Part shown: positions 4,101 to 58,900 of the stretch, one piece after another
Position numbering within the stretch: position 1 is the stretch's first letter
Layout of the letters: each line of letters opens with the position of its first letter
Assembly: GCA_964019135.1 (NCBI GenBank)
Contig: OZ025258.1
Span: 9,567,961 to 9,631,960 of the forward strand
DNA length: 64,000 nt
DNA from: Arenicola marina
Lineage: Eukaryota; Annelida; Polychaeta; Arenicolidae
Reading direction: 5' to 3'
The notes under the pieces: model-generated
Database searches by the model: none
What the model saw: the letters and a program-made list of their open reading frames with translations, nothing else
What the model was told of the DNA's origin: nothing
Made by a program: the position numbers and the translations under genes

Positions 4101-7100
4101 CATTGCTCGCGCCAGCATCGTTGGAACATGGGCCGAAATCAAATATTTGAATTTGGTGCTGTCACGGCCTTTTATTAACCCATATCTGTAGGATTACCAT
4201 AGATGGCCCATCTTATACTATATATCACCGCCCAATCCACATATGACATATACAGAATACCGGCCATACTTCCGCCAACCGGATCCGCTCGTCACTCGAC
4301 GGCATGTTTAAGATGTCGTGTGTTTGCAGGTGTTACCGCTGTGGGACTGGACGACTCTCCACGGGCGGGACTGCCTCGTGGAGAACCCCTACTTTGTCGG
4401 CAACAAACTCACCATGGACGACTGCGAGGTAACACTGGCACATCTTGGCTTTCCTTTACAACCATGTTACTATACCTTTGTACCGAGTCGGCCCCCGGGA
4501 TTCCGCCCCAGTGTGTGAATGTTTATGTATGCATGTATGGCGTGGAGGATTCCCCAGTCCTGATGTATATAAATGGCTCTCAGTATACGCTGGTAAACCC
4601 GCCTGCGGGAGAAACCTACACTTGCGGCCCTGTCTAGGTCATTGGGAAGAGACACATGAGGGTGAGAAAAGGAAAGCCTCCCTGTGAAATGAGATTGGGG
4701 TTCAGACGGCCCAGCCAGTGTTTAGCATGGTTGATGTCCTGTGTCTAACTGACTAGGGTGCATGTTGGCAGGTGTGTGAGCATCTGGAGAGCATACAGCG
4801 CATCCACAACGTCTCACATCCCATAATCACTGAGGACTTCCTGAAGAGGGACATCCCCGCCATTGTGACAGACGCGGTCGTCGACTGGCCCGCCCAGGAA
4901 CTCTTCTCCATCCCCTTCCTCAGCCAGGTACGTGTACCTTCACCATCCTCTTCCTCAGCCAGGTACGTGTACCTTCACTATCCCCTTCCTCAGCCAGGTA
5001 CGTGTACCTTCACCATCCTCTTCCTCAGCCTGGTACGTGTACCTTCACCATCCTCTTCCTCAGCCTGGTACGTGTACCTTCACCATCCCCTTCCTCAGCC
5101 TGGTACATGTATCTTCACCATCCTCTTCCTCAGCATGGTACGTGTACCTTCACCATCCCCTTCCTCAGTCAGGTACGTGTACCTTCACCATTCTCTTCCT
5201 CAGCCTGGTACGTGTACCTTCACCATTCTCTTCCTCAGCCTGGTACGTGTACCTTCACCATCCCCTTTCTCAGCCTGGTACGTGTATCTTCACCATCCCC
5301 TTCCTCAGCCAGGTACGTGTACCTTCACCATCCCCTTCCTCAGCCAGGTACGTGTACCTTCACCATTCTCTTCCTCAGCCTGGTACGTGTACCTTCACCA
5401 TCCTCTTCCTCAGCCTGGTACGTGTACCTTCACCATCCCCTTTCTCAGCCTGGTACATGTACCTTCACCATCCCCTTCCTCAGCCAGGTACGTGTACCTT
5501 CACCATCCCCTTCCCCAGCCAGGTACGTGTACCTTCACCATTCTCTTCCTCAGCCTGGTACGTGTACCTTCACCATCCTCTTCCTCAGCCTGGTACGTGT
5601 ACCTTCACCATCCCCTTCCTCAGCCTGGTACGTGTACCTTCACCATCCCCTTTCTCAGCCTGGTACGTGTATCTTCACCATCCCCTTCCTCAGCCAGGTA
5701 CGTGTACCTTCACCATCCCCTTCCTCAGCCGGGTACGTTTACCTTCACTATCGCCTTCCTCAGCCAGGTACGTGTACCTTCACGATCCCCTTCCTCACTC
5801 AGGTACATTTACCTGCTCCATCCCCTTTCTCAATATCCTTTTGCTATTTTTTACATGTATCAATGCCAAAACATATCATGTGACAATGATGACCTTGACC
5901 TTGACCTTGACCTTGTGTCTCCGCAGCTGTACGGCAATGAGGAGGCGCTTCAGGCGGTCATGCCCTGTATGTTCGCTAGCAACGTGCGGGTGAAGCAGGG
6001 CAACGCCAAGGCCATCCTGGCCAAAGCGGCGCGCGGCGAAATAACCAACTGGTACGCCCACTGGTAAGTGTTGTCATGGTCACCAACTGGTACGCCCATT
6101 GGTAAGTGTTGTCATGGTTAGCAACTGGTACGCCCATTGGTAAATGTTGTCATGGTCACCAACTGGTATGCCCACGGGTATGTGTTGTCATGGTCACCAA
6201 CTAGTACGCCCATTGGTAAGTGTTGTCATGGTCACCAACTGGTACGCCCACTGGTAAGTGTTGTCAGGGTCACCAAATGGTACGCCCACTGGTAAGTGTT
6301 GTCATGTTCACCGACTGGTACGCCCACTGGTAAGTGTTGTCATGTTCACCGACTGGTACGCCCACTGGTAAGTGTTGTCATGGTCACCAAATGGTACGCC
6401 CACTGGTAAGTGTTGCCATGGTCACGAACTGGTATGCCCACTGGTAAGTGTTGTCATGGTCACCAACTGGTACGCCCATTGGTAAATGTTGTCATGGTCA
6501 CCAACTGGTACGCCCATTGGTAAGTGTTGTCATGGTCACCAACTGGTATGCCCACTGGTAAGTGTTGTCATGGTCACCAACTAGTACGCCCATTGGTAAA
6601 TGTTGTCATGGTCACCAACTGGTACGCCCATTGGTAAGTGTTGTCATGGTCACCAACTGGTACGCCCATTGGTAAGTGTTGTCATGTTCACCAGCTGGTA
6701 CGCCCACTGGTAAGTGTTGTCATGGTCACCAAATGGTACGCCCACTGGTAAGTGTTGTCATGTTCACCGACAGGTACGCCCACTGGTAAGTGTTGTCATG
6801 TTCACCGACTGGTACGCCCATTGGTAAGTGTTGTCATGGTCACCAAATGGTACGCCCACTGGTAAGTGTAAGTGTCATGGTCACTGGTAAGTGTAAGTGT
6901 CATGGTCACGAACTGGTATGCCCACTGGTAAGTGTTGTCATGGTCACCAACTGGTACGCCCATTGGTAAATGTTGTCATGGTCACCAACTGGTACGCCCA
7001 TTGGTAAGTGTTGTCATGGTCACCAACTAGTATGCCCACTGGTAAGTGTTGTCATGGTCACCAACTAGTACGCCCATTGGTAAATGTTGTCATGGTCACC

Positions 7101-8834
7101 AACTGGTACGCCCATTGGTAAGTGTTGTCATGGTCACCAACTGGTACGCCCATTGGTAAGTGTTGTCATGTTCACCAGCTGGTACGCCCACTGGTAAGTG
7201 TTGTCATGGTCACCAAATGGTACGCCCACTGGTAAGTGTTGTCATGGTCACCAACTGGTACGCCCACTGGTAAGTGTTGTCATGGTCACCAACTGGTACG
7301 CCCACTGGTAAGTGTTGTCATGTTCACCGACCGGTACGCCCACTGGTAAGTGTTGTCATGGTCACCAAATGGTACGCCCACTGGTAAGTGTTGTCTTGGT
7401 CACCAACTGGTAAGCCTACTGATCAGTTTTGTTAATTTAAGTAGGCTATTTGTTTGACTCAAGTCATATTTGAAGACAGTAAGAGGGAAGTACAAGAAAG
7501 TAAGTTCCTTGGGACCTATACATGCTAAGTATAGTTCAGTTATAATTTTTGTTTTGGGCGCTATTCATGAGCATTTATGAGTAGTTCCGTTTCTCGTCGC
7601 CAGGGAGAACTGCGAGAAGAACGCTGCCAAGACCCTGCGGCAGTTCTACACGCGGCCCTACTTCATCCCCCCCATGGTGGAGATGGCCGAGCCCAACTGG
7701 GTCTTCGTCGCTTTTAAGTACAAGGGAAAGCGCAGCAAACCGGTATGACGGGAGACTAGTGGGGGAGTGAGCGGGAAGGGGGGGGGGGGGTCGAGACAGA
7801 AATCTCCGCCTGGGTCCTTCCTGTTCACCCACCTACATGAAGGCATACTTTAGCCGCAGCAAGCCGGTAGGACCGGAGACTAGTGGGGGAGTGAGCGGGG
7901 AGGGGAGGGGGGGGGGGGTGTCGAGACTTAAATCCTCACGTGGGCCTCGTAGGGGAGAGGCTGTGGAGATACATGGATACGAGCTGTGGGGTGGGGGGGG
8001 GGTGGAGAGTGAGTGATTTGGAACCGGATAGACCGGGATGGAAGGTAGCTGAGATGGGTAAGATATCGATAAAACTCCTGGTAAGTTAGCTCAAGTTGTT
8101 TATGTATTCATATCTAAAGGATATTTTCCTTTGAAGTCATGGAACCGTGGAAACTTCAATACTCACGATAGCTCGTATAGTATGTTAGACATCCTACCAC
8201 CCCCATGTGCTAGCTAGCTGCCAGCACAACAATTCCCAACAGGTATTATAGTAGGTTGTAGAAATAATCTAAGTGAAGTTATCTTCATCGTGATGCTATA
8301 ATGATGATATAAACATATTGTCACGTGTTGTTTGCAGGCTGATATAGCGCTTCCTCTCATGTGGATCGCCTTATTGAAGGGGCAAATGAAGGTGACCTTG
8401 GTCCCGAGGTCGCCGTGCAATAGCACGTGTTCCACGTTGTACAACACGCTTCACGAAGGAGAGACTTGTAAGTATAGTGAGCACTGTGACGTTTATATGC
8501 AGCGTATGTGATAATTCCATCATCTGCGCCATAGCTGGCCGTCTGGCCGTCGCGAATCCATTTTGTCTCCTTCATTTCGTTTTAAGCAAAACACCTACCG
8601 TGCCTGCGTCCCATCCAAGTAACTCCGCTTGGATGGGAGGTCATCGACATTACTGATAAAGTATCCTATATGCAAATGAATACCATATCGCCGTGTTTTA
8701 TTTGTATGAGCGTAACTGACCTTGACCCCGACTCTCCCACAGTGGTCGTCACCGACATGATGTGGCTTCTCGACTACATGCCGCAGGGAGAGGGAGAGAC
8801 AATCGCTATTGGCTCCGGGGGATTCTTCGACTGA
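1141..8834 (+). CDS. Single-pass membrane protein with cupin/JmjC-like segment, function unknown (7 exons)
   Basis: Exons 1141-1434, 4330-4428, 4772-4927, 5927-6063, 7604-7742, 8338-8467 and 8743-8834 join with matching phases (0,0,0,2,0,1) into 348 residues ending in GGFFD. All introns start with GT and end with AG. An alternative start at 1171 (GCCATGA) would give 338 residues. Seen: a cytosolic, partly helical N-terminus, a hydrophobic segment at about residues 68-81 (VSLVVVVLAALLYY) preceded by RTKRR, which suggests a type II membrane protein, then several Cys residues. Residues 147-173 (HPIITEDFLKRDIPA ... DWPA) look like the opening strand of Cupin_8/JmjC-like proteins. I do not see a clear HxD...H iron triad, so enzyme activity is not claimed. 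I cannot name the family. Introns 1, 3 and 4 are minisatellites; those in 3 and 4 include the splice donors. The gene itself is well supported by six phase-consistent joins. Confidence 0.82.
2632..4072. repeat. 26-bp minisatellite in intron 1 of the membrane-protein gene
   Basis: About 55 units built on CTCGGGTCAGATACTGCGGG plus CACAGG. Between about 3530 and 3870 a longer unit of about 54 bp (the basic unit plus CAGACACAGACAACTCGTGT) is itself repeated about six times. ORFs through it are repeat artefacts. It does not include a known exon edge. Confidence 0.95.
4908..5820. repeat. 35-bp minisatellite spanning the exon 3 splice donor
   Basis: About 25 units. Each holds the end of exon 3 and the donor: CTTCCTCAGCCAG|GTACGTG, then ACCTTCACCAT. 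The true exon ends at 4927. The repeat is open in all three frames, giving spurious ORFs of up to 431 residues. Confidence 0.95.
6044..7420. repeat. 38-bp minisatellite spanning the exon 4 splice donor
   Basis: About 36 units. The first lies inside exon 4 (TNWYAHW codons) and crosses the donor CCCACTG|GTAAGTG at 6063/6064. Later units keep both the coding bases and the donor, with sparse substitutions. Confidence 0.95.
7725..7920. repeat. Two-copy duplication of the exon 5 donor region
   Basis: Bases 7730-7785 (AGCAAACCG|GTATGACGG followed by GAGACTAGTGGGGGAGTGAG) recur at about 7850-7905 (AGCAAGCCG|GTAGGACCG and the same tail). The copies flank a stray fragment similar to a GH63 exon (7804-7847). 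Confidence 0.8.
7804..7847 (-). pseudogene. Ectopic fragment of GH63 exon 11 with its splice acceptor
   Basis: Bases 7812-7839 are identical for 28 bases to 17726-17753, which covers the start of GH63 exon 11 (WVNRKDP) and the last intron bases before it. Similarity extends weakly on both sides. The fragment sits in intron 5 of the neighbouring gene. Confidence 0.8.
8609..8638. repeat. 11-bp hairpin in intron 6
   Basis: TCCCATCCAAG at 8609-8619 pairs with CTTGGATGGGA at 8628-8638 across an eight-base loop. Confidence 0.6.
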
Positions 8835-11589: not shown

Positions 11590-14500
11590 TCACTGCTTCG
11601 CTGTCGCCCCTCCTCCCGCCGCCCCTCCCTGCTCCTCCATGGCGAGTTGTCTGAGGCAGGAGGCCACCACCGCAGTCCAGCCGGTCTGATGGCTGTCGGC
11701 AACAAACAGAACACGAGACACCTGATTAACAACAAACAGAAAACGAGACAACTGATTCTCAACAAACAGAAAACGAGACAACTGATTCACAACAACATTC
11801 AGAGGGCACTGATAATCACTGAGATCATTCATGCACTGGCGGGCAGGTCAGGTTGGTTGGTTATTCAGGACGCTTTAACCGCGCTTGGCCATATCGCGTC
11901 AATGGGGGGTGGCAGAGTGGAGCCATGTCGCCGGGGGTAATCCCCTACTCTTTGCGACGAAAGACATGGGATCATTATCCTGCGACCACACAGACATGGC
12001 CACAGCGGGGCGCGAACCACCGATCCAGAGCACTCAAGGCGAGCGCTCTAACCCACTGAGCTATCGGGCAGGCCCCGGGGCAAGTCACGAAGGGGGGATG
12101 GGGGTGGACTTACGGGAACGCCAGCCCCGCATGGAAGGCAAGTCTGAATAGGGCAACGTAAATGGAAGGCAACAGAAGAACTTAAACAATGTCTAAGCAA
12201 ATTTGCACGTCATCATATTGCAATAATGGTGAACAAATCGGTATAAGTTAAATAAATAGGACTATTTGATTCGTTCCTTAGCAACGAGACTCGCGCGAGA
12301 CGGGCACGTGACTGACCTGGCGCCGAGTCCTCGCCCCGAGTCTCCGTGGAAGTACTCGTAGAACAACACCAGGTCCTTCCAATGTTCATTCTCCGCGTAC
12401 TGGGGGGCGCCACCTATATTTAAAACAATGAAGAAGCCTTTTTATGGTTACCAATCGTAAAATTTATGGGAGCGTAATTATAAATAGCGTTGAGGTGAAC
12501 CTGCTCGCTGGCAATCACTTCCAGAGGAATTCCCTCGTTAAATATCATAATAATAATAAAATATTTCTTTAGGGACATAATTAAATATTTCTTTAATGAC
12601 GTAATTAAATATTTATTTAAGGACATAATTAAATATTTCTTTAATGACGTAATTAAATATTTCTTTAAGGACATAATTAAATATTTCTTTAAGGACATAA
12701 TTAAATATTTCTTTAATGACGTAATTAAATATTTCTTTAATGACATAATTAAATATGTCTCTAATGACATAATGAAATATGTCTTTAATGACATAATGAA
12801 ATATGTCTTTATTGACATAATGAAATATTTCTTTAATCCCATAATGAAATATTTCTTTAATGACATAATTAAATATTTCTGTAATTAAATAATAAATTGG
12901 TTTTTATTAAATCATTTCATCATGTAAGAGAAAAGAGCATCTTCCTTTGAAATAATAAATAATGAATATTAATAATAAAATATTTCTTTAATGACATTAT
13001 TAAATATTTCTTTAATTAAATAAAAAAATTGTTTTTATTAAATAATTTAATCATATAACAGATAGGAGCACCTTCCTTTGAAATACAGAAGATACAAAAA
13101 AGGTCATCCACGTAAACATTTCCGCCCGTTAACGAGTCTACGAGAAGTTGTTCTGTACCGTGGCAGGGTCGATTCCCCCGTGGGTCGGCCTGGAAGAGGC
13201 GGGTCATGCGTCGGCTCAGCTCGTCGGACACCTCCTTCAGGTTCATGCGGCGCCCTGACCCCTGGGGGCACTCCAGCGTGACGTCATCACCGTAGAAGTA
13301 GTGGTAGCGTTTCAGCACCGTCATAATCAGGAAGTTCACTAAAACATGAACGACGACATATATGTTGTCTGCTGGCGCGAACCACCGTGATAATAAATCC
13401 GGATTATAGGATCAAATACCTATGCCTGGTACCTGGAATAAATCAGCATTATGGGATCACTTTACAGTGCCTGGTGCTGCGTACCCCCTCCCCCACACAC
13501 TCTCCGATCGCCGGTCACCATCAGAAGGGGTTACATGTTGGTGGTGACAAGACTTCTCGCAATAGCCACCGGTGCCAGAAGAAACAAATGTGATTGTGAT
13601 TGGACGTGATATCATTGGAGATCTGTCACTAACCTCTATAGTGACATATAACACATACTGCGACGCAAAACAGTTTCATCTCAAAGCTCATATCTAATGT
13701 CTCATATCCAACATTATATAGAACAAGAATATTGGGAGCCGCCACAGTTCAGTTGGTAGCACGGTTAGCTCATTACCAGCGAGCCAGGTTCCACCATCGC
13801 ACGTTTTGTTGGGTAACTGAGAGGTGTGTCTGGTACTTTGTGTCGCACATCATTCATCTCTCATTATTTCAGGATAAGGTTATTTGCCAGGAAATGGAAA
13901 AAAACTACAAGAACTGATGTTTTAAGCCGTTGTTGTACACACCTTATGGCTAAACTGGGCCCTCCTTACCAGGTGTAACATGCGGAAGTGTCCCCCCCCC
14001 CCACGCGCAGCTGTCCCCCTTATATAAATTACATGATATTGAGACCCTCTCCGCTCCATGTGTTCGTACGGTGCCATTATGATAGATACAGGGGAGGCAT
14101 CTCCGCATGGGGGGGCAATCCCGCATAGCACACCGGTGTGGTTGGGGCATGTATACATAGTTGGTTGTATATTCAGGACGCTTTCACCACTTTTTGGTCA
14201 TATCGTCTCAATTGGAGAAAGAAGGGAGAGTGGAGCCATGTCCCGGGGGTAAGCCCCTAATCTTTGCGAAGGATGACATGGGATTTTTATCCTGCGACCA
14301 CACAGACATGGCCACAGCGGGGCGCGAACCACCGATCCACGTGTCGTTAGGCTCTCAGGTGGCCAGACCACTCAAGGCGAGCGCTCTAACCCACTGAGCT
14401 ACCGGGCCGGCCCCGCATGTATACATAAAGCTAGCACCAGTTCATTGGGGCACTGACGTGTCGGCCACTTACTGCACAGCCAGATGGGTCCCCTCCAGTT

Positions 14501-17500
14501 GCTGTTGCCCCCGAACAGGTAGGTGTCGGACTCGCCCGGGGTATACTGGACACGGTAGTTCTCTCCGCCCACGTCCATCTCAAAGGGGTGTTCAGCATGG
14601 TACTGCACGGCACAACGAGCAACACTGATACCGCAGGCAATGGCAATGTATACAGGATATGGCAGTAGAGCAGTGTTAATTAGATAATGGCGGCACTCCA
14701 GTTAAACCCAAATACAATGGAATAAACGCAATTTCTGCTTACTACATATCACTGTTGATAACACACCTTGGAGAGAGAACCGGTGCGCTGGTTGACAGAT
14801 ACTCATAGCTCACGTTGGACCAGGGCCCTATTTCACGAACATAGTTCAGCCGGATAAGGGGCTTAGTCGGCTAAACTGCGTTCGTGAAATCCGCCACAGA
14901 ACTGTTCGCTCACCTTGGAGAGGGAGCGGATGCCGTAGGGTGAGAGGAACTCTTCCTCATCCAGCATGCTCTGCAGCACCCTGACCAGCTGGTCCTTGGT
15001 GGGGATGGCTAGCATGAAGCGCTGGTCGTTCTCGCAGTCCATGAACGTAATCTGACAGGTGAAGAGCGGTGGTCAAGTCACTATACAATAGACGGATCCA
15101 CACTCCGACACTAAGCCCCGCCCACGCTCGAGTCCTTTCTCCATAATCGTGAGTATGAAATTGACAATCATAGCTGATGGTAGGTGCAAGTAAGAAGTAT
15201 TCATCTCTGAAACTGACAACGAAATGACATGCTGCTTTGTTTGACCTTTTTCCCCCACATAATTGGATAAAAGCAACAGTGACGTCCGTGAATGATTGAC
15301 AGCCTCGATCGGTCTATTCATCACTGGTCCGTGATAAGCAGCACATTCCAACACGTGGACAGCAGTGTCCTTCGTGAACGGTAGAGCTTTGGACCGTCAA
15401 AAGAAGACCAGGTCATCACGAGCCTTTCTATGAGAGGCTTCATGAAATAAACGATTGCAGAAATAAAAAGTATTCAAGTATATGGCATCAGTAATACCTA
15501 AAAACGTTTCTATTTCGTCAGTGGCTAAAAAAAGTATTTGTGCATCTTAAACACTTGGTGCCAAGCGAAAACTCCTTTAGCTCATTTTCTTCTTGTGTGT
15601 TTCCTCGCTTATATTATCGTGCCCATAAAGTAGAAGCGAATACTTGTTCCACTTATTTTCGCACCTACCAATTTAAATTCTGGAAGCGAGGAAAGTGACG
15701 TCAAGCGGGAATACAAACGCATGCGCTTTTACATTGTGACTAAGGCTCCCTCTGCTGATGTGCTTGACTAAAAAACCCTCAACCATGAGAACAATACACG
15801 CCCTCGACAACAAAAGTCTACGCATTTCATTAAAGATCAATTGTCAGTCGTGTGACATCAATGGGGAATTTTCAAATAACGGTCAGCTGCAATGATCCAA
15901 CAAAGAATCCCGTTTTGCGACTTTTGACGAACACATTTATAGTAAAACACATTCTCATTCGTTTATCTTCCATAAACAAAGTTAACTTTGAAATAAAAAC
16001 GTGTCACCAACACTTTAAACAGAAAATATGCGACCATAATGATCAGACACAATCAACATTTGACCACGTGAAATGACTCCATTAGTACACGTGTCATAGG
16101 CCAACATACGGGCACCACCCCACAATGCACTGGACGCATAATAAGATAAAACACTTCCGGATCCTGACCCTGTTGGCGAGGTCCTTCCGGTTCTCCAGGA
16201 ACCACATCGTCCGCTTGTAGAATCCGGGCAGCTTCTGGATGCTGGACTTCTCCAGAACGAGGCAGGAGAAGAGCGGCACCAGGCCGACCAGGGAGCGGAT
16301 CCGGAGAGGGCGGGACTGGCCGTCCGGGAGCTTCAGGTGGTCGTAGTAAAACCCGTCCTCCTCGTTCCACAGTCCTATACAGAACACAGAGTCACGTGGT
16401 CACCCCTCTACAACGCTAGATCATGGGATGTGAGCTAGGCGCTTGCTGGAGAAAGTAGATCCTAGATCGGTCAAGTGAATATATATATATATGACTCTTC
16501 AAACAGACCATCTTATGTCCAGCAATGTTATGAATAAGCCATTTGGGATCGCTCCATAACCTGAATTCTGACCCTATAATAAATGCCAAGGCCCCACGAC
16601 CCATCCATATTAACTATCGCGCGTCATATTTTACATTTTAGAATCAGGACTAAAAGTATCTCAAAATTATGATGCATATATGGTTTATATTTCGTTGAGT
16701 CTGTAAAATAACAGTTTCAACATAAAACTGCGCGGACTAGTTTATCGCACCCAGACGTCCTAGCGAGTCACGGTCGACATGACACAAAATACCGAACAGC
16801 GAATAGGCGCGCATGAATATAAAGCCGGCCACCAACTTCTGCTCCGGTGAACAAATTTGCTTCTCTCCGGATAGCCCACAGCCTTTGATGATTTAAACTC
16901 ACTACAGAATATACTTATTTGACATGGAAAAGAGATTGGTAATATAAAAATGACAGAACATAGTGCGTTAATACATGTATGTTTTTCGGTGTTGGATTCG
17001 ACTCCTCACCCTGGCCTCCCTGTTGGTTCATGGCGTCCACAATGGCGATGAAGTGCTCGAAGAACTTGCTGGCCATGTCCTCGTACACTGGGTCGGTCAG
17101 CGCCAGCTCCAGCGAGATGTTCAGCATGATGATAGCATAGAAGGCCATCCACGCCGTGCCGTCAGCCTGAGGACAGCCACAACAACACCGGGAATTCAAC
17201 GCTAGATTCAAGGCTACCAGGGCCACAAGGAATTATTGAAGGACCATAAGGCGTCATAGTTAAGAAATATATGCATATAGAAGAGAGAGAGACGACATTT
17301 CGCGACATAATTCCCGCGCCTTAAAACGACAGCAGACGACATTTCGCGACATATTTTCCGCGCATGAAAACGACAGCACGACACGTTTTACGATATATTT
17401 CCCGCGCCTTAAAACAAGAGCAGACGACATTTCTCGACATATTTCCCGCGCCCATTAGGCAAGAGCAGACGATATTTTTCAACATATTTCTCGAGCCTTA

Positions 17501-20500
17501 AAACAAGAGCGGACGACACTTTTCACGACTTTTTCCCGGGCCTTGAAACCAAAGCAGACGAAACTCCAGCGTTACTTCGCGCGCCTTAAGACGAGAGCAG
17601 ACGACATTTGTGACCGGGCGCTAACCTGTTGCAGGTACCCGCCTGTCGGTAGCGGCTTGGAACGGTCGAACAACCCGATGTTATCCAGCCCCAGGAAGCC
17701 GCCGGCGAAGATGTTCTTTCCCTCCGGGTCCTTCCTGTTCACCCACCTACATGGACGCATACATATATGATCGTACTACGAAAGATGGGTCTATGTAAAT
17801 AATTACGCATAAAATCGGATGTTAAAGACAATTCGGCGGAATTACGACGATACATGCGTATTCAAAGTTTAGGTTACGTTCAGAATAGCGTCCACATTTT
17901 CTCACATGTCCAAGGAATATTTCAATTTTCATGCAAGAACCATTTATTAATTTCAAATTTATAGCACCACGCAAAATTCGTAATTTCAAGGCATGTAACT
18001 TTGGGTAAATAATATAATAACAACATGCGTATTAAAAGTTACGGTTACGTTCAGAAAAGCGTCCACATTGCCTCACATGTCCAAGGAATATTTCAGCTTT
18101 TATACAAGAATAATTCATTTATTTCAAATTTATAGCACCAAGCAAATTTACTAGTAATTCTCTGGCACGCAATCGCAAGAGTCTTCATCGGCCATAGATA
18201 TGATAGATATCTGCCATGTCTATTCATGTTATTAATGTTAAGTAAAGATAAAATCTACTGATTCCAAGTACGTCCACGTGCTCTGAATCATTTAGATGCG
18301 GCAGTGCATAGGTATACGCTCAGTGTACTGTTACATGCTTCAACGTTTATCTGGGCATCGGACGCGGGCACCAGGACACAGTTACCATGGTTACCATGTG
18401 AAGTTGAGCAGTAGTTTCTGGAAGCAGCGCGCCAGGAAGACGTTGTCACGGCGACCACGTGGTCCAGTCAGTCGCCAGACCTCCAACACGGCCAGCGCGT
18501 GCACGGGGGGGTTCACGTCATCAAAGGCAAACTCGTAAGCCGGGATCTGGACAGTCCAGTATAATATGGGATGGGATGTGTGTGTGGGGGGGGGGGGGGG
18601 GGGGAGGGGGAGGAGAGATTCCATGCAGTAATTTATTTCATTCAAAATTGAAAATGGTTTAAGCGCGATTTTGTTTGTTAATATTAATGTAATCGAACGC
18701 AGTAGGGTTAAGCGCGATATTTTTGTTAATATTAATATAGCCAAAGACAATATTATAGGCCTAAACGCGATATTTTTCTTAATATTAAATTGGTCAAATG
18801 CATGAGTAATAACAAAATCATTTGTATGATATATGGGAAGTTAGTAGTTTGATATCGTAAATTGATGCAATGGGGAGCAGTGCGCATAACGTCCTACAGA
18901 AGGAATACCGACAACAAATTGTGCGCACAAACGCGAGAAAGTAACACGAGAAAACCTATTTCAGGATATACAGCGAGTGAGAGGATTGCAAGTGGTAGGA
19001 TGTAGATTGTTAATGTTACAAGCGATATGGACAGGGACGAGACAAAGATAATATAGGCAGATATTACAATGATATTACATAGGATGCGGTGTCGCCAAGG
19101 CTGGAGGAGAAGCAATGAAGCGGAAACAGGCGGGGTGGGAAAAACAGAAGCCGCGAGAGGCAATGACTGTAGAGACAGTGACTGTAGAGATAGTGACTGT
19201 AGAGACAGTGACTGTAGAGACAGTGACTGTAGAGACAGTGACTGTAGAGACAGTGACTGTAGAGACAGTGACTGTAGAGATAGTGACTGTAGAGACAGTG
19301 ACTGTAGAGACAGTGACTGTAGAGACAGTGACTGTAGAGATAGTGACTGTAGAGACAGTGACTGTAGTGACTTTAGGGACAGTGACTGTAGAGACAGTGA
19401 TTGTAGAGCCACTGACTGTAGAAACAATGACTATAAAGACAAAGTCTGTAGAGACTATAGGAGACCGTTTAAGCAGGTTGAGTGGTGTTGTACCTGGCCG
19501 TTCGGGTGCATGTACCACTCCCTCAGGAACAAGGTCAGCTGGTCCTTGGCGAAGTCAATGTCGATCTCCGCGAAGGGAATCATGTGGAACGCCAGGTCCC
19601 ACGAGGCGTACTGAAACCCAAAAAGGCGGCGTACTGAAGACATGGCGTACTGAACACAAGGCGTACTGAACGCATGGCGTCCTGAAGCATGGCGTACTAA
19701 ACACACGTCGTACTGAACACATGGCGTACTGAACGCAAGGCGTACTGAACGCAAAGCGTCCTGAACGCATGGCGTACTGAACACAAGGCGTACTGAACAC
19801 AAGGCGTACTGAATACAAGGCGTACTGAACACATGCGTAATAAACACGTGGCCTACGAAACTCATGGCGTACTGAACGCAGGTCCAACTGAACGCATGGC
19901 GTACGGCCCACATGGCGTTCTGCACACAAGGCGTACTGATCTCATGGCGTTCTGCACACACGGCGTTCTGCACACAAGGCGTACTGAACTCATGGCGTAC
20001 CGAACGCATGACGTACTGAACACATGGCGTACCGAACACATGGCGTACTGAACACATGGCGTACTGAACACATGGCGTAGGATCCTACACAACTACGGCA
20101 TACGGCACAACGAAAAAAACGAAAAAAACACTTACCCACGGATACTCCCACTTGTCCGGCATGGAGATGACGTCACGGTTGAAGAGGTGCATCCAGTCAT
20201 GGTTACGTCCCTCCTGGCGCTCCTCGGGAGGCTTGGGGGTGTCTGGATCGCCCTGTATCCAGTCCTTAATGATGTAGTGGTAGAACTGCTTGCTCCAGAG
20301 GAGGCCGGCGTACGCCTGGCGCGCCACCAACCGGTCATCTGGGCTGGCGTTCTTGATGATCTGCCATACACGATTTCGCAATATTATACGCCATCTTGGA
20401 AAAAGCATGACTGGCGCAAAGAGCTCTGGAAAATACTTTGGTGTCATCCTTTTCCACTGAGATAAATGCATGTACCACGTTCCCAGGTTATAGGGGAGGC

Positions 20501-23500
20501 ATGTCCAAAAATTAATGAGCATGTCTATATCCAGAACACATAACTTTTCACTACACTTTCATACACAATCTTATGTTTAATTGCGGACACCATATGTTGT
20601 CATGCGATGACGCCATCTTGACATCTCGCAAAGACAAAAATAATATCCAGAACGCATTGCACATGCAGTGGCGCCACACAGTGAAATAATCTGGACTATA
20701 ATTGGCAAAGTCGCCTTTGAAGAATTAGCTTTTATATATACCCCCCCCCCCCCGCCTTCCGCCTGGATCGGACTTTGTGACAACGAGCATAATTTTCTCC
20801 ACCCGTTGAAAAGTCCTAAACAAGTGTAAAATGTTGATTATCTGCATTTTTGCGTTGATTTAAATGGATCAAGTTTAATTCAAGTAGCCGTGGTGGTTTT
20901 GTCTGGGATTAAAGTTTACAATAAAGTGAAAACGAAACGACAGATTAATTACCTTCGAGTAGAAAACATCGGCCTCCACTTTCCGCAAGCGGAACACCTC
21001 ATCGAAAGCTGCCTTCCCGAAGCACTGGCCTGGTGCCTCTGCCTCGTGGTACAATCTACACCTGACGGAGACGCTACCGCCAGGGGGCACTGTCAGTTTG
21101 AAGTGGGCGCCGACCTTGGTGCCCACGGACTTCGGGTTGATGGCCGCAGTTTCTCCTATACACAGAGTTAGGGAGAGACGGAGGGAGGCGACTAACGTTA
21201 GGACGGTCAATGGACGCGATGGCCATGCAATGACGCAGTCTCTCAAATACACAGGGTGTGGCTGGAGGCAATTAGGACAAGTTGGGACTGGATGTACCGG
21301 CCATGCCTTCCACACCCGTCCACGACCAAGGCCAACCACATGTATTTATTAGTCACATGTCCTTCTCTTGTCCATTTTTTTTGCATTTCATTTATCGTCT
21401 CTCAAAAGCGGGATCAGTGTTTGACGTGGCATAACAAGCGATTTGTCTGACCGTTTTGCTCCAAAATTCCGTACTTAATGTACCATTACAGCATCACAAA
21501 TAACCAGAGAAAACACACCCACCATCAATGAGATATCGGTGGAAAGCATCCCGGGAATACTTGGTATCGCCGTCCCAGTTGTAAAGCTTCTTGGTGTTGG
21601 TTTCGTTTTCTGTGAACCAGAGTTCCGGATCCTGACCTTGAGGATCCTTGTCCACTTCCCAAAAGGTCACACCTGACAAGGATAATCCGGAAGAGTCGTG
21701 GTAAGACCTTGCCAACATGTCTTATCGAAGAAAGGTCAACTCTTTATGGTTACGGTTGGTTGTACATGTATATTCAGGACGCGTTTGGTCATACCGAGTC
21801 AATGGCAGAAGGAAGGGAGAGTGCATAGAGCCATGTCCCCAGGGGTAACCCCTACTCTTTGCGAAGAAAGACATGGGATCTTTATCATGCGACCACACAG
21901 ACATGGCCACAGCGGGGCGCGAACCTAGGTTTATACATTACTACTGACCTAGGCTCTCGTGACGTCCGCTCACTTTCCCCTTGTCCACTTTCCTCATCCG
22001 GGGCCTCATGGTACACCCCTGTAAAACGGACAGAATGTCCACATAAAGGCCATGAAAGACATTACCGTCAATAAATTTAGTTTGTAAAATTTAGTAAGTT
22101 TATTTTTTTAAGTTGTCCTTACAGTTTGCAGAAAAGTTGATGTCTTCTTACTTAACAAGTATATCTAACGACAGCTAGGTAGAGAAAGCAAATATATGCA
22201 ATGGCAAATAGAGACAATATAGTGCCGTATGTAATTATACAGCTGATACAGACTTACAGCTGCGCATTGGTAACATATTGTTAAATGCTGATGTATTCAC
22301 GTTCGCTCCGCCAAAGAGTGTTGGATAGTTCAGTAAGATGTGGTAACCTCTATACGTCATACCGCGACAAAGGGAAGGGTCAGGGCATACAGGAGCCAAG
22401 TCCATGGGAGTAACCTCTGCTCAGTCACGAAAAGTTTGCATCAGATTATTCTGTCGTCCCATAGTGTCTGAGTAAATATTATGGTTAGACCAACCCCTAC
22501 TCTTTGCGAAGTTGACGCTATCAGAGACCATGATTTCAATTGATAACCTTATGCACTTCAGAGGCGGATCCAGGAATTTGAAAAGGGGGGGGGGGTTTGG
22601 AACTCTTTGGAAAATTTGACGACCGGATGGGAGTGGGGTCCACTGAAAATTTCGCTTGAGGGGGGGGGGGGGTCCACGCAGCCTCAGATAGCGCTTTTTC
22701 TCCAAAAAATGGAGGGGGGTTCCACGTCTCAGATGGCCTAAATTTTGCATTGAAAAAACGGCATCATTCCTCAAAAGGGGGGGGCGGGGCCCTGAACGCG
22801 CCCTCTGGATCCGCCCTGCCACTTTATATGCCATGAAATAGTGAACTGCATAAGAAAGCTTAGCCGTACCTCGTGGCGACACCCCCAGCTCCAGGTGTTC
22901 CGGTACCAGACTGTCGGGATCACGTGGACCGTGGCGGTCTCGGGACCCCGGTTACACACGGTGTATTTACAGAGGACATCATTCGGGGACGCCTTGGCAT
23001 ACTCCGCGAATACGTCCCAGTAACGGCTCTCCGCAAAGGCCTCTGACGTCATCAATACCGGGGCAACCATTATTCACGTGACACGCCATGCTTCATACTT
23101 CATCTCACTCATTCATAGGCACTCGATCGGTACTTTTATAACTTAATACCCGGAAGGGTACAAGATATTTTTTGCTGTATTAAATACACAGAGCTCGTTA
23201 TTTTTAAGTTTTGTTCTTGCAAATGAGCAAGAAATTACAGTTGATTTGATCGTTTTTTAGGAATCTTGTAATTCGTCCCCGGCCCACAGCAGCGGTAAAA
23301 GCGGAACGTGCGTAGCGCCACCGTGCGGGGAGCTTGTACTCTTTTATGAACAGTTCTAAAAACGACTACATGATCATTTACATATTAAAATTGGCATCAG
23401 TGTGTCAGTCTTGCATAATTTACAGCTACCATAATTAATCTAACTAACATGTACTTGTTAACGTATCTAGGCACATTTACATCATGATATATATAGTAAA

Positions 23501-47263: not shown

Positions 47264-49302
47264 CTGAAGTTCCTCTGATGGGTACTCGTGCCAAGCACTT
47301 TAAATTACAGCCAGCTACTTTGGGTGGCGTGCAATATTGATTAATGAGGCCACGAGAAGCAATGGTTGTTTGGTTGAATAGTTGAAGGCACCAAGGCCAA
47401 GCTAGGTGTTGTTTCTGTCCTGTGCAATCGTTGTTTTGCTTTGTGTGGTGGTGGAGCGGTAATTATTGGCCATATATCGGACCGAAGGTGTTGGTGGGAA
47501 AATGGGACCGGCCCGGCGAAATCGTAATGATTCCTCTGGTGTGGGAAGGACCCTTTAACCCCCAAGGCCAGAGTGAGATGCCCCTAGGGGTTAACCCTGG
47601 GCTCGAGAAAAACAATCTTTATATTGCTAAATATGTTATAATCCCTCTGCCACACGTTAAATTTAATCATCAGAATTGTCCTTCCTACGCGAAAATTCAA
47701 TACACTACTGTTTAGTGTCGGAGGAGTTTATTCGATTTTGATAGCCTCGAAGCAATATTCCGTTCGAAGCATGTATTTGAGTTCGATCAGGGTCAAAGGC
47801 GTGAAGCGCTTTGAAATTTGACCCCGTGTTATTTAGAAATATGGTTTCGCTTAATTCTTCCATTGTCATCATACGACAACAGAATGTCTATATTTTAAAA
47901 ATTCTGCATCGAAAATACAAATTTCAACATAAACAACCCTCTAAAATCATTCGTGACCCCAGCACCGTTGAGGTCAATCGTGAGGTTGGCGGTTACGTGC
48001 GGCAGAGGCTTATGTGAGGAACGAGCTCCCTCTGCTGTGCGGAGCGTGAATAAACCTGAGAGTTGAGACCGGCAGAGTCCGCCACAGTGATCATGGCAGC
48101 CCTGCCTATTAACGCGATGAGTTTCCCGGTCTGACGATTCGCCCGACACACCGAATCGAGCTAACCACCAAACCATTGCTGACTGCGCTTCGGGAGGTGC
48201 ATTGGTACCCGGATGTCCGCTAATTGTGTGCTAATGACTCAGTCTGATGAATACATCCAGCCGCCAGGCATACGTATATAGGAGTGTTTGTCATGCATGT
48301 GACGTGTTAAGTTTCATCGCATTCAGGTCTGCATACTAAGCGTACTGTACAACTTCCTGCTCTCCAGGTCGACCAGTAGCGTATGCCAAAGCCGACTCTC
48401 AACCTATTGTGTTGTACTTCTTTCACTTGCTTTCCTTCTCTCTCTCTCTCTGCTTCTCATGAATATCGAGTATCTATCTCTGTTTGATAATGTCTCCCTC
48501 GTAACTCGTTCTCTTTCCGTACAACTGTCTCTTTTTAGACATTCCCTCTCACTTTCACCTAAACTAAACTCCCCCCCTAAGTTTGAACACTCCCCTCCCC
48601 ACTATATTTCCGTGTAGTCTGTTATACTCTCCCCTGTCTGCCCCTCTTCTCCTATAGATTGCCCCCATTTCTCTCGTAGCGGTCCGTCAACCTCTCCCGC
48701 CCACTCTTTTTCTCTCTTTCCTTCGCCTCCTTTCGTTTTTCCCCTTGGATGACCTGTTTTTCGTTCTCTCTCTCGCCGTCGCTCCAGTCTCATGTTTGTT
48801 TGACGTGTTGTGGTGTATATAGATAGAGTTTATTCGTAACTTCAGGCCCCAGGCAAAAATAACATGCAACCGACCGACTAAGACAAACTTAGTTAACAAA
48901 CAAAGTTAATTAGAGAATTAGGCTAAACCTTTTATCATACATAGTAAATATTTTTTATATAGACCTTGCTAAGGACATTAGACATGTTTTTTCCTCGGAT
49001 GTCATAATGCATAAAAAAACTCATCATTTATATCTTTTATAGTTAAATATCTTGTGGGAAAATAATTATTGCGGATTTTGTCATACAATGGACATTTTGT
49101 TCAAATATGGAACTCGTCAAGAGAAAAAATAATTTCATGTTGTAAGCAATATTTACAGATGGAGTTGTGGTGTATATATATATCTGTAGTAACCCTATTA
49201 ATCTTGTGTTCTCACCCACACCAGGTATCCCAGCCTTGCGAGAACTGCCGTCCCATCCGCCCGATCTCTTCCCGCGAGTTGATCACATGACTGTGGCGGG
49301 CC
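47264..49302. other. Intergenic or 5' region of the NHL gene
   Basis: No coding region supported. It includes a pyrimidine-rich tract at about 48420-48780 (CTCTCTCTC) and an AT-rich stretch before an acceptor-like CCCACACCAG at about 49223. Confidence 0.4.
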
Positions 49303-50421
49303 ATGGCTGAGAAACGCAAGCACCGCGCCACCACCAGGCGGCGCCACGAAAGTTACATCCTGCGCACCAAACCCGTGTTTCTATGGCGACAGGAATCCGA
49401 GGACAACAGCGTCTCGTCCTCGCTTCTCAGCAGCGTCTCCAATGGCGACACGGACAGCGCGAGGCGACGCAGCGAGCCCCCACCCTCCACCCGCGCTCCT
49501 CTACTTCCGGTCGACATCACCTTCCTGCGCAAGCATTGCTTCATCGTCGCCGACTCCGAAGCGCACCACCTGGCTATATACGACCTGACACGTGACCAAC
49601 CGCAAGTGGGCGTCCTGGCGAGCGGGCGCGTGTGGCCGAACAGCGTGGCGCGGACCAGAGACGGCAACGGCGTCGTGGTGACAGACCGGAAGGATAACAT
49701 GATCAAGGTGCTGGACGCCGAGCGAGGCGCCGTGCTGCTGGGCATCGAGACCCCGTATGAGGACGAGGGCGAGGAGGAGACGCCCTTCCACCCGATGGGC
49801 GTGGCCGTCAACAGTCGCGGCGAGATCATCGTCACGGACACCGGCAAACATGTGGTGCACATCTACACGCCGCAGGGGGAGCTGCGCAAGACCTTCGGCT
49901 CCAAGGGGCGGGATACCCTGCAACAGCTGTGTCTGCCCTTCTACTGCGCCGTCGACAGTCGGGATCGGATCCTGGTGTCGGACAACATGAACTACTGCGT
50001 CAAGGTGTTCGACGCCAACGGCAACTTCGAGTCGCAGATAGGATCCGGAAAGCTGTGGGGCCAGAAGCACTTCCAATGCCCGTACGGCGTGTGTACGGAT
50101 CCCGATGATAACATCCTGGTAGCGGATCACGACACGCACCGCATAATTCTGATCGAGCATGACGGCGGGGGCGGGGGAGGGGGGCGGGGAGGGGGAGGGG
50201 GAGGCGGGGCGGTGGGGGGCGGCGGCAGCGGCCTGGGATTGCCGAGCCTCGGGGGGGAGTCCGGCTCCCGTGACGTCATGAACAAGATGAACCAATGCCG
50301 GTTCCCGATGGGCGTGGCGGTGGGGCCGTGCGGAACGCTAGCCTACACGGAGGCGAACAAGGACCACAACGTGCGAGACATCAAGGCCTACAACCTCTAC
50401 GATCTCGAGACTCACGTTTAA
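49303..50421 (+). CDS. NHL-repeat protein, single-exon, 372 aa (TRIM2/3/71-like beta-propeller without RING)
   Basis: One uninterrupted ORF. The start is well defined: GCCATGG context, with an in-frame TGA four codons upstream. Residues 1-65 are basic, Ser-rich and probably disordered. From about 68 onward there are NHL blades: WPNSVARTRDGNGVVVTDR, FHPMGVAVNSRGEIIVTDT plus HVVHIYTPQGELRKTFG, LPFYCAVDSRDRILVSDN plus CVKVFDANG, and QCPYGVCTDPDDNILVADH plus IILIE. The last blade (FPMGVAVGPCGTLAYTE) closes the propeller and is separated by a Gly-rich loop of about 30 residues (286-317). No RING, B-box, coiled coil or filamin domain is present, so it is not a full TRIM-NHL ligase. NHL propellers bind protein or RNA; the partner is unknown. 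An acceptor-like AG at about 49223 hints at a spliced 5' UTR. GC-rich coding sequence contrasts with AT-rich flanks. Confidence 0.9.
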   Translation: MAEKRKHRATTRRRHESYILRTKPVFLWRQESEDNSVSSSLLSSVSNGDTDSARRRSEPPPSTRAPLLPVDITFLRKHCFIVADSEAHHLAIYDLTRDQPQVGVLASGRVWPNSVARTRDGNGVVVTDRKDNMIKVLDAERGAVLLGIETPYEDEGEEETPFHPMGVAVNSRGEIIVTDTGKHVVHIYTPQGELRKTFGSKGRDTLQQLCLPFYCAVDSRDRILVSDNMNYCVKVFDANGNFESQIGSGKLWGQKHFQCPYGVCTDPDDNILVADHDTHRIILIEHDGGGGGGGRGGGGGGGAVGGGGSGLGLPSLGGESGSRDVMNKMNQCRFPMGVAVGPCGTLAYTEANKDHNVRDIKAYNLYDLETHV

Positions 50422-52448: not shown

Positions 52449-52504
52449 CCTGGCTTACAGTCTGCAATGTTAAACATATCCAAAGGTGGATTCTCTGTTA
52501 CACA

Positions 52505-54675: not shown

Positions 54676-54694
54676 CACGTAGAACAGTGCCCCC

Positions 54695-55110: not shown

Positions 55111-55819
55111 CCACGGGTTATAGCTCCACGTACTTCGCAATGAAACACGCAGACCTGCTGACACCTATGTATATGACACTGGCAAACAGTGGGAAGACTT
55201 ATTGGGTTGGTGACAAGACGTGCGCCATGGGCCACTCAACACTGTCAGCAAGCTGACATCTCCACATTTATGGTGTATGGGTGGGGATGTCGATGTGGTG
55301 GTGTTTGTTGGCAACTCGACCAATACTAGTAGTACTAGTACTAGTAATAGTACTGAGGTCTACTCAATTCATATTAGTTTTCCTCACATGTTGACTTTAT
55401 GTAGTATCGCGAGAGAGAATCTGTCGTCAACCCAACGTTTACCCACGTTGTCTTTATAGTCTTGTTCTCCGCTGTGGCCACCATGCCAGCGACTCTATCG
55501 TAATGGTGGTCTCCTCGGCCAGGGATTGTAATCTTTTTTGTTGTTTTCCTGGTCGAAAGAAATAATGATTCTCTCGCAAAACGGGAGAAAGCGACATCTG
55601 GTGTCAATCGGTTATTTCATTTCGCAATGGCGGCTCGACGATTTTGAAAAAAAAGAGTTCTACTTCTTATAATTTGAATAATTTAAATACTCTTTGTGGT
55701 TTCTTTGTAGAGCCTCAATAAGACATGCTTTCTTGGGGGATGGTGGGGAAGAAATGTATCTTTTTAATTTAAAGTGTCATTAGGAAAACGATTGATCAGT
55801 CAACAGCGAGTGTCATGCA

Positions 55820-55825
55820 TTTATT
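55820..55825 (-). terminator. Candidate poly(A) signal of the Kazal gene
   Basis: Plus-strand TTTATT (AATAAA on the coding strand) lies about 80 bases beyond the stop codon, a typical distance for a short 3' UTR. Confidence 0.5.
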
Positions 55826-55902
55826 GAAGGCAACGCAAAATGTCACAGGCTCCTTGTATCGCAGTCAAGTTTTGCGTTGTTCTGCGAGATGTTGGTTGCG
55901 AC

Positions 55903-58900
55903 TCAACACTCCCCCTGGTGGGCAATCTTCAGGTCACTTCTTTCTCTGTGGGAGACACAGAAAACACATTCCAGATTAACTTACTGTTCGGTCGCTGAGG
56001 CCCTTTAACATGCATTAATTGTACAGTGTTGGGGCAAGATAATTTATTCATCAATCACTGCAGTGAGATAAACTGCAGAAATCAGCAAAACACCACAAAC
56101 TTTTGCGCTCACAGACGAGTAAACTACCAGCTCCAGAAGACATGGACTGTGGTACTCACTGACAGACCACCAGCTCCAGAAGACATGGACTGTGGTACTC
56201 ACTGACAGGCCACCAGCTCCAGAAGACATGGACTGTGGTACTCACTGACAGGCCACCAGCTCCAGAAGACATGGACTGTGGTACTCACTGACAGGCCACC
56301 AGCTCCAGAAGACATGGACTGTGGTACTCACTGACAGGCCACCAGCTCCAGAAGACATGGACTGTAGTACTCACTGACAGGCCACCAGCTCCAGAAGACA
56401 TGGACTGTGGCACTCACTTACAGGCCACCAGCTCCAGAAGACATGGACTGTGGTACTCACTGACAGACCACCAGCTCCAGAAGACATGGACTGTGGTACT
56501 CACTGACAGGCCACCAGCTCCAGAAGACATGGACTGTGGTACTCACTGACAGGCCACCAGCTCCAGAAGACATGGACTGTGGTACTCACTGACAGGCCAC
56601 CAGCTCCAGAAGACATGGACTGTGGTACTCACTGACAGGCCACCAGCTCCAGAAGACATGGACTGTAGTACTCACTGACAGGCCACCAGCTCCAGAAGAC
56701 ATGGACTGTGGCACTCACTTACAGGCCACCAGCTCCAGAAGACATGGACTGGGGTACTCACTGACAGACCACCAGCTCCAGAAGACATGGACTGTGGTAC
56801 TCACTGACAGGCCACCAACTCCAGAAGACATGGACTGTGGTACTCACTGCCAGGCCACCAGCTCCAGAAGACATGGACTGTGGTACTCACTGACAGGCCA
56901 CCAGCTCCAGAAGACATGGACTGTGGTACTCACTGACAGGCCACCAACTCCAGAAGACATGGACTGTGGTACTCACTGACAGGCCACCAGCTCCAGAAGA
57001 CATGGACTGTGGTACTCACTGACAGGCCACCAGCTCCAGAAGACATGGACTGTGGTACTCACTGACAGGCCACCAGGTCCGGAAGACATGGACTGTGGTA
57101 CTCACTGACAGACCACCAGCTCCAGAAGACATGGACTGTGGTACTCACTGACAGGCCACCAGCTCCAGAAAACATGGACTGTGGTACTCACTGACAGGCC
57201 ACCAGCTCCAGAAGACATGGACTGTGGTACTCACTGACAGGCCACCAGCTCCAGAAGACATGGACTGTGGTACTCACTGACAGACCACCAGCTCCAGGAG
57301 ACATGGACTGTGGCACTCACTTACAGGGCACCAGCTCCAGAAGACATGGACTGTGGTACTCACTGACAGGCCACCAGCTCCAGAAGACATGGACTGTGGT
57401 ACTCACTGACAGACCACCAGCTCCAGAAGACATGGACTGTGGTACTCACTGACAGGCCACCAGCTCCAGAAGACATGGACTGTGGTACTCACTGACAGGC
57501 CACCAGCTCCAGATGACATGTGTTGCTGTACGTCCGGCTATCTGTTCCGCACACTGGATCATACTTGCGGTCGCAGGCTGTTTTACATCCAGTTTCCGGT
57601 TCCTTGATTGGAGCGCTCCTCAGCGTCGCCCGGGCTGTAACAGAACTAGTTTATATGTATTTTATTTATGTAGAAAAACGACAATAGCCCGGAATTCCTC
57701 GTGTTGACAACGATTACAAAATAACCTAGTGCGTGGACCGATGAATCTACAGATCCCTGATGGTCTGCCGCTCATGAAAGGCTCCTTGTACAAACGCTTC
57801 TAGGCGGGTCAAAACAACTGGACTATTATTGGCCAATATCGCGAAAAACTTTTGTCTATTTAGTCGTGTATATACAATTTCGCAATAAAGCGAACTCTTA
57901 ATGCAACTTGCTGCCTACATGGGGGGGGGGGGGGGAGGGGGGGCAATGGGGCATCGGGTTCCCAGATCACGAAGAATACATTTCTTTATTCCCATGTCAC
58001 GATGAATTAAAAGCAGAACTCTCCGCATGCAATAGAAGGGCGGATACACGATACTAAATTGACGATTTTCCGATTCACGGTTATTCAAGCTTAAATTTCC
58101 CAGTTCACGATTAATGAAAATCCTTAATCACGGCGGTCGGCTAATACCCCATTCCCCGATCACGAAGAATTATTTTCCTCATTCCCAGTTCACGAAGAAT
58201 TATTTTCCTCAGTCCCAGTTCACGAAGAATTATTTTCTTCATTCCCGGTTCACGGTGAAATGAAAAGCCCAATCCCGAGGAAGAAAAATACCCCTAGCCT
58301 CCCCTCTACATACAAGAACAAAGGGATACTCGTCATCTACTAGACTACAAGTTACACATAACCTTTGCTCACGACGGAGTGGTTTGGGCTTGTGGCATCT
58401 TCCGGTTTCAGAACGCAAGCGATGACTGAAGAGTCGCAACTTTGTTAACGCATACATATTGTTCGCGGTTTGTAACAGAACATGACGACTGTCTGTTGAT
58501 GTTTTAAGGCGTCATACGAGATCCACATCCCGAATCCCGTTACATCACACAGATACAATACACTTGTAATGGTATACAGCGCATAGGTATATCCGTCTGT
58601 ATAATAGAGGCCGGCCCGGTAGCTCAGTGGGTTAGAGCGCTCGCCTTGAGTGCTCTGGCCACCTGAGAGCCTAACGGCACGTGGGTCGGTGGTTCGAACC
58701 CTGCTGTGGTCATGTCTGTTTGGTCGCAGGATAAAGATCCCATGTCCTTATTCGCAAAGAGTAGTGGGTTACCCCCGGGGACATGGCTCCCCTCTCTCTC
58801 CCTTCTCCCATTGACGCGATTTGACCAAATGTGGTTAAACTGTCCTGAATATATAACCAACCGTCTGTATAATAAAGATACAAGCCTCTTCTACTTCTCA

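Follow-up and report, generated by a model that had tools for sequence, protein, structure and literature searches.

How does a minisatellite come to lie across the edge of an exon, and what follows for the intron into which it grows? The question is raised by a stretch of 64,000 nucleotides from contig OZ025258.1 (assembly GCA_964019135.1, positions 9,567,961 to 9,631,960 of the forward strand; hereafter the window, numbered from its first letter). Three unrelated genes of this window, a JmjC-like membrane-protein gene (gene 1), a gene of the GH63 family and a gene with three Kazal domains, carry four tandem arrays whose repeat unit holds a genuine exon edge. Leaving aside how the arrays became so large, we consider it likely that they belong with the boundary minisatellites known as 'mirages'.

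Tandem arrays across genuine exon edges

Tandem repeats were called across the window with Tandem Repeats Finder (TRF; 101 rows), and exon boundaries were judged by gene models, not by splice motifs alone. Three arrays cross donors. In gene 1, on the plus strand, a 35-bp unit repeated 26.6 times (4903-5832) crosses the exon 3 donor at 4927, and a 38-bp unit repeated 36.8 times (6044-7432) crosses the exon 4 donor at 6063, both as placed by TRF, unit alignment and the gene model. The first array takes in 25 bp of exon (4903-4927), its remainder making up 91% of intron 3 (4928-5926, 999 nt); the second takes in 20 exonic bp (6044-6063) and covers 89% of intron 4 (6064-7603). On the minus strand, a 43-bp unit repeated 32.4 times (56126-57520) crosses the donor at 57493 of the exon that encodes the first part of Kazal domain 3, with 28 exonic bp (57493-57520) and 88% of intron 5 (55946-57492) inside the array. 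The unit at the exon edge equals the array consensus at 33 of 35, 38 of 38 and 42 of 43 bases in the 35-, 38- and 43-bp arrays, respectively. When the 25 exonic bases at each of these three junctions were sought in their own intron, their scores were 40-45, above every null (maxima 17-24; 0 of 100 nulls reached the score in each case). In the 35-bp array, the exon has a T at column 5 that is absent from the interior units and present in the most distal partial unit, a single site that fits the exon as the source of the array.

The fourth array lies upstream of an acceptor. A 16-bp unit repeated 28.4 times (19628-20079, minus strand; TRF and acceptor scoring) covers 86% of GH63 intron 8 (19611-20135) and reaches the edge of exon 9 (exon start 19610) through one degenerate unit, 19611-19627. 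The last 16-bp unit carries an insertion, and the exon edge and the unit have only TTCAG/TACGCC (a slash marks the junction) and GTG in common. Scored against the unit, this acceptor reaches 22, the highest value among the 28 acceptors (the next is 7), and 3 of 20,000 random CAG acceptors do as well; its exonic bases alone score 19, a value reached by 3 of 100 nulls and hence not clear. We accept the acceptor array, with less weight than the donor arrays.

The four junctions at which a preliminary description of the window had placed such arrays (4927, 6063, 19610 and 57493) are thus borne out by TRF and in-frame gene models, 19610 being the weakest, and the defining property of a mirage, a unit that holds the authentic boundary, is clear in the three donor arrays and less so in the acceptor array. 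The same description had read unrelated units as the mark of a recurring process, and this also holds: units of 35, 38, 16 and 43 bp, unrelated in sequence, sit in three unrelated genes. By eye, the splice signal is the only motif that units share across arrays, and the extent of the unit across the junction differs.

Gene models behind the junctions

All 28 introns of the three rebuilt genes are GT-AG (28/28), and no joined frame contains an internal stop. Gene 1 (1171-8834, plus strand) has 7 coding exons from ATG to stop and encodes 338 amino acids, with a hydrophobic stretch close to the N terminus (by eye). Its junctions are backed by the continuous frame and by a weak ungapped match to JMJD7 (residues 143-194, E=0.063; the query being the 265 residues of exons 1-5), which, judged by exon lengths, crosses the exon 3/4 junction; a Pfam search with these 265 residues gave no match. 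The Kazal gene (55903-63053, minus strand) has 6 exons within the window, encoding 180 amino acids and three Kazal domains, and its 5' end may fall outside. Joining the exon that ends at 57493 to 55945 yields a complete domain (Kazal_1 profile positions 7-49 of 49, E 1.4e-13). All three domains are split by an intron at identical position and phase, which points to duplication of a domain together with its intron.

The GH63-family gene (11590-25841, minus strand) comprises 18 coding exons and 17 introns and encodes 896 amino acids from a start codon picked by eye. A 788-residue part of the protein matches Pfam PF22422 (8.2e-23) and PF03200 (3.4e-8); a PDB search with the GH63 part at E 0.01 gave no match. 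An exon 17 start at 12399 was discarded because it breaks the frame, which a start at 12413 restores. Its junctions were compared with intronless bacterial GH63 relatives: a scan of prokaryote genomes confirmed at least 589 stretches, of which the best 80 were retained. At the exon 8/9 junction (junction 7 of the comparison), 80 of 80 bacterial loci align ungapped, with a mean identity of 0.90 over 16 residues. Other GH63 junctions are less uniform (ungapped in 15 of 80 loci at the comparison's junction 6 and in 38 of 78 at junction 12), which leaves the claim for the exon 8/9 junction untouched.

A separate observation concerns the origin of this gene. Over a stretch of 296 residues, the best segments of its protein are 65-75% identical to the 80 retained bacterial loci, which belong to Acidobacteria, Planctomycetes and others. 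An ancient transfer from bacteria is possible for this gene, which today has 17 introns.

Copies, decoy splice sites and array growth

What has become of the splice sites in the additional copies? Besides the authentic site, GT is kept in 25 of 25 scored copies of the 35-bp array, 34 of 35 of the 38-bp array and 31 of 31 of the 43-bp array (90/91 in total; 1/27, 1/37 and 2/34 rows, partial or gapped, were not scored), so that the donor arrays share with mirages the retention of splice signals in many copies. Substitutions per site in the donor 9-mer amount to 0.067, 0.069 and 0.014 in the three arrays in this order, next to 0.045, 0.047 and 0.018 in the exonic part of the unit and 0.050, 0.029 and 0.019 in its intronic part. 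Because two of the arrays have a donor 9-mer that changes roughly in step with the rest of the unit or ahead of it, we attribute the conservation of GT to recent homogenisation and not to selection on the decoys, which are without clear extra constraint. The authentic donor of the 35-bp array is CAG/GTACGT, with a U1 pairing energy of -7.4; 11 of 25 copies have the weaker CTG/GTACGT (-4.4), and 9 of 25 are identical to the authentic 9-mer.

The donor arrays contain exact self-repeats of 116, 217 and 325 bp, at lags of 385, 484 and 301, respectively; the longest one in the 16-bp array measures 31 bp. Self-repeats of such length at multi-unit lags reveal block duplication in the three donor arrays, as in ordinary minisatellites. 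Coming from one sequence, these blocks may speak, indirectly, for length instability.

Duplications at junctions and their excess

All 56 junctions of the three genes were scanned for spanning duplications, which were accepted at a score of at least 22 with a score of 8 on each side. Two further junctions qualified. In gene 1, the exon 5 donor (7731-7914, plus strand) has its junction, 7742/7743, repeated once, at 7866/7867, 124 bp on, with 12 exonic and 48 intronic bp ungapped (score 95; the null maximum over all junctions is 23); three gene 1 donors in a row, those of exons 3, 4 and 5, are affected. The GH63 exon 7 acceptor (exon start 21155; 21145-21257, minus strand) has a degenerate copy 89 bp upstream (score 28).

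Without the minimum for each side nine junctions were flagged, three of which the rule removed: the GH63 intron 17 acceptor (score 52, nearly all of it from the intronic side), the Kazal intron 2 acceptor (score 26, spacing 18) and the GH63 intron 14 donor at 14914 (score 22, with a single CTCTCCAAG/GTG copy 147 bp further along), which beat its own nulls. A 30-bp array of 3.2 copies near the acceptor at 11692, that of the final GH63 exon, was not counted as spanning: located at 11700-11795 on the minus strand, it ends 7 bp before the acceptor, repeating its pyrimidine tract without exon sequence.

Is the number of duplicated junctions more than chance would give? For the background, each listed array was collapsed to one unit and the intron points inside tandemly duplicated segments were counted; the intronic parts of the junction arrays' first units were left in, which is conservative, and low-complexity points were masked, in this background alone. 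Every test is post hoc and confined to one window. At a score of at least 22, 4.2% of array-collapsed intron positions lie in tandem duplications, and 6 of 56 junctions do so where 2.35 are expected (P=0.029). At a score of at least 28, the GH63 exon 9 acceptor falls out, leaving 5 of 56 with 2.11 expected (P=0.06); at a score of at least 40, the 4 of 56 that remain are all donors, with 1.78 expected (P=0.1).

The count can also be taken over arrays. Thirteen intronic arrays have 3 or more copies of units of at least 10 bp inside the three gene spans, after exclusion of G-rich runs, sub-periods of larger arrays, and two rows within 12841-13085 (131 bp x 1.9 and 24 bp x 3.2), which are of the same family as 12553-12897. 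Four of the 13 cross a junction, with 0.91 expected (P=0.009), as do 4 of the 6 that have 20 or more copies, a cut set after the data were seen (0.36 expected, P=0.00012). The distance of the 13 arrays from the nearest junction leans to zero when the junction arrays are included (Kolmogorov-Smirnov [KS] P=0.035). Seven of the nine non-crossing arrays lie more than 17 bp away and show no pull towards a junction (KS P=0.60; those at 7 and 16 bp were left out). The excess at junctions thus rises with copy number, which fits persistence at an exon-anchored edge better than biased birth.

Two sets of arrays near these junctions are described for their own sake. In the GH63 gene, the minus-strand arrays at 19156-19455, 17286-17609 and 11700-11795 stop within the intron, 38, 16 and 7 bp from junctions. 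Upstream of the Kazal gene, a 38-bp array (63211-64000) runs off the window, and on the gene strand most units seen contain a donor-like ATA/GTAAGC, making another boundary array past the window edge possible.

The introns that hold the arrays

The array-free remainders of the four array introns (4928-5926, 6064-7603, 19611-20135 and 55946-57492) measure 94, 171, 73 and 180 nt. These are four of the five smallest array-free remainders; the other 24 introns have 135-2201 nt (Mann-Whitney P=0.0002). The pattern was found in passing and had not been predicted beforehand. Neither random placement nor nucleation at junctions would predict it, because each intron has two junctions at any length. Growing arrays may replace the rest of the intron, or they may grow in short introns only; the two-copy duplications occur in introns of 595 and 367 nt.

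Age can be judged for the Kazal intron. Introns 1 and 3 of this gene split domains 1 and 2 at the place where the array intron splits domain 3, and neither holds a listed array. With the same intron position in three domains and an array in the third only, the intron predates its array. Intron 3 of gene 1 is peculiar in another respect: of the 28 introns it alone lacks an in-frame stop, its length of 999 nt is divisible by 3, and its 35-bp array is stop-free in all forward frames. Retention of the intron would add 333 codons.

A model for boundary arrays

We propose the following model. A short segment across a splice junction would have been duplicated in tandem and then amplified by multi-unit exchange or slippage. 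Selection on the protein would keep the exon-edge unit, and the remaining copies, decoy splice sites included, would drift and homogenise like any minisatellite. Since the spliceosome would keep to the exon-adjacent site, the extra copies would stay intronic and the protein would change little or not at all. The three continuous gene models place the junctions at the exon-proximal copies, and it is from this continuity of the proteins that we infer use of the outermost site in this species. The excess of large junction arrays would come from growth or persistence at an edge that the exon holds fixed, not from more frequent starts at junctions. We offer this anchoring step tentatively, with more doubt than conviction. 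The fullest form of the idea, in which junction arrays outgrow and outlast other intronic arrays until little else of the intron remains, and the spliceosome still chooses the outermost among as many as ~37 near-identical sites, is unlikely; if true, it would make anchoring a genome-wide feature that shapes intron length and a clean test of splice-site choice.

Several of the findings weigh against this model. Continuity of a predicted protein is indirect testimony for the use of the outermost site. Moreover, the authentic 9-mer recurs in 27 of 31 copies of the Kazal array, 19 of 35 of the exon 4 array and 9 of 25 of the exon 3 array, and the model offers no reason for splicing to ignore them; with so many copies equal to the authentic site, splice-site strength alone fails to account for the choice, for which exon definition is a natural candidate. 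The model did not predict that non-array sequence would be nearly absent (73-180 nt) from the array introns. In the Kazal array the donor columns are slightly slower than the rest of the unit (0.014 versus 0.018-0.019). The GH63 exon 9 acceptor is the weakest case, its TRF row stopping 17 bp short of the exon, and leaving it out reduces the crossing arrays to 3, both among the 13 (P=0.055) and among the 6 with 20 or more copies (P=0.003). At the level of duplications the excess is weak, with P between 0.03 and 0.1 depending on the threshold. The trend with copy number comes from four arrays in one window picked as striking, and the P values overstate the case because the 20-copy cut was made post hoc and the window was chosen in this way.

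Two alternatives contest the anchoring step only. Minisatellites might arise anywhere in non-coding DNA, some of them overlapping junctions harmlessly by virtue of splicing, with no excess at junctions. The richness of introns in tandem duplications (the 4.2% of positions at the loosest threshold), the many arrays of the window that lie away from junctions and the P value of 0.055 once the GH63 acceptor array is removed all agree with such plain spill-over; the 4 of 13 arrays that cross a junction where 0.91 are expected and, post hoc, the 4 of 6 large ones do not, and we regard it as rather unlikely. Alternatively, duplication might start preferentially at splice junctions, for instance through splice-motif sequence, R-loops or polymerase stalled at exon edges. 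Nucleation of this kind had been put forward in the preliminary description, and part of that claim survives in the 6 duplicated junctions against 2.35 expected (P=0.03), in the three consecutive donors of gene 1 and in the lean of the 13 arrays towards junctions. The remainder does not: the excess of duplications is small and fades at stricter thresholds (P=0.06 and 0.1), tandem duplication is general in introns, by eye the units have only the splice signal as a common motif and reach across the junction to different extents, and the arrays more than 17 bp away show no junction pull. Biased birth therefore appears quite improbable.

Three further explanations concern the arrays as such. In the models of Rogers and of the globin mirages, duplicated AG/GT segments become a new intron, and the arrays would be the origin of the introns that hold them. 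The almost complete filling of the four array introns is in keeping with this, as is the exon 3 array, in which the authentic site and 10 of the 25 copies have CAG/GT behind a pyrimidine run and could thus serve as donor and acceptor. An intron gained by simple duplication of an exonic AG/GT segment should lie at a new position and have units that run on into the downstream exon; by eye, the starts of the downstream exons differ from the units. In the Kazal gene, the only one in which the intron's age was judged, the position common to three domains makes the intron older than its array, and birth from the array is rejected; as a general explanation it is very improbable. Might the decoy sites, donors or acceptors, serve instead to control how these genes are spliced or expressed? 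GT is retained in 90 of the 91 scored donor copies, and intron 3 of gene 1, stop-free over 999 nt, could be retained. The donor columns, however, roughly keep pace with the rest of the unit or outrun it in two arrays and lag slightly in the third, and a random 35-bp unit without stops would not be rare; we give a function of this sort very little credence. Arrays of such size are hard to assemble. One globin mirage looks aberrantly assembled in the draft genome, by the account in PMC3087553. Misassembly as the source of the arrays or of their copy number is hardly credible here, given that the units hold distinct variants in block patterns and that three unrelated donor arrays agree with the exon edges, the acceptor array less closely.

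The preferred reading thus remains that of mirage-like boundary minisatellites. Three unrelated genes with 28 introns between them contain six duplications across junctions, two of which are weak or degenerate, so that the cases published for single genes are probably no mere curiosities. These arrays amount to natural experiments on splice-site choice, in which 26 to 36 scored consecutive units each present a donor, many of them equal to the authentic one. A genome-wide excess of large junction arrays, if it holds, would separate biased birth from anchored persistence.

Other features of the window

Between 36263 and 47202, a 54-bp unit recurs about 200 times over 11 kb; its reverse complement contains CACAG/GTAGAG, and there is no gene model in this region. 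A tRNA-like dispersed element (AGCTCAGTGGGTTAGAGCGCTCGCC...), probably a short interspersed nuclear element (SINE), is present by eye in whole or partial copies near 12050, 14400, 21900 and 58600; ARAGORN found no tRNA, and Rfam at gathering scores gave no match. Viral contigs were searched with a pattern from one array unit and with another from the tRNA-like element, and neither gave a match. An open frame at 49291-50418 (plus strand) contains NHL repeats (PF01436, 9.5e-15). A Pfam scan in eight strand-stretches of three frames each, which covered the plus strand up to 10000 and from 24300 to 57000 and the minus strand from 14000 upwards, returned the NHL and Kazal families, and SGL, DUF5540 and DUF7402 with scores under the family cut-offs. 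It missed the GH63 exons, which matched only once joined into one protein.

Comparison with known boundary repeats

How do these arrays relate to what has been described before? The link to the amphioxus mirages suggested in the preliminary description proves sound: repeats of this kind are in print for Adh, globin, troponin C and PGBD5 (PMC3087553, PMC3902484). Its suggestion that acceptor involvement was unreported is mistaken, as PMC3087553 describes globin repeats at both boundary types, among them BflGb6, in which the 3' end of an intron and the 5' part of exon 2 are duplicated, and cites Adh3 and two other amphioxus loci. The same paper calls the mechanism that generates boundary minisatellites unclear and proposes intron gain from them. 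PMC3902484 adds the PGBD5 repeats to the known cases and cites troponin C. Our full-text literature searches found no genome-wide count of boundary arrays, which does not disprove that one exists, and what could be seen of an amphioxus huntingtin paper mentions tandem repeats, none at boundaries.

The globin mirages resemble the present arrays in that many, though not all, copies retain AG/GT and regular splicing is reported (PMC3087553). Reverse transcription PCR of globin, together with data on Adh3, in or cited by that paper, suggests that mirages leave regular splicing undisturbed, and the amphioxus cases in print are reported to splice regularly. The globin units are 150-160 bp long, with 6 and 3 units in two BflGb6 haplotypes; the units here measure 16-43 bp in 27-37 copies (TRF), beside two-copy cases at spacings of 124 and 89 bp. 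The Adh3 mirages known from B. floridae and B. lanceolatum (Canestro 2002, cited by PMC3087553 and by PMC3902484) are closer in having short boundary units (10-72 bp). They are length-unstable, with somatic instability, according to the same two papers, and they occur in one gene, in contrast to the three unrelated genes in one 64-kb window found here. The 60-bp and 108-bp repeats of lancelet PGBD5 differ in their longer units and their 2 to 7 imperfect copies, and their copy number varies between assemblies (PMC3902484).

A more distant parallel is provided by the dual-specific splice sites of human UBC and similar tandem-repeat genes, in which tandem units also carry splice signals and expansion has been proposed to be less harmful because the repeats can be spliced out (PMC10809524). 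There, a single AGGT site plays both parts, donor and acceptor, and each intron spans an integral number of units; in the present arrays, each unit holds one kind of authentic site, although part of the exon 3 array has CAG/GT. The arrays of this window therefore represent a kind of repeat already known from amphioxus that is unusually dense and large, and if the host animal is not a lancelet, the known range of mirages widens.

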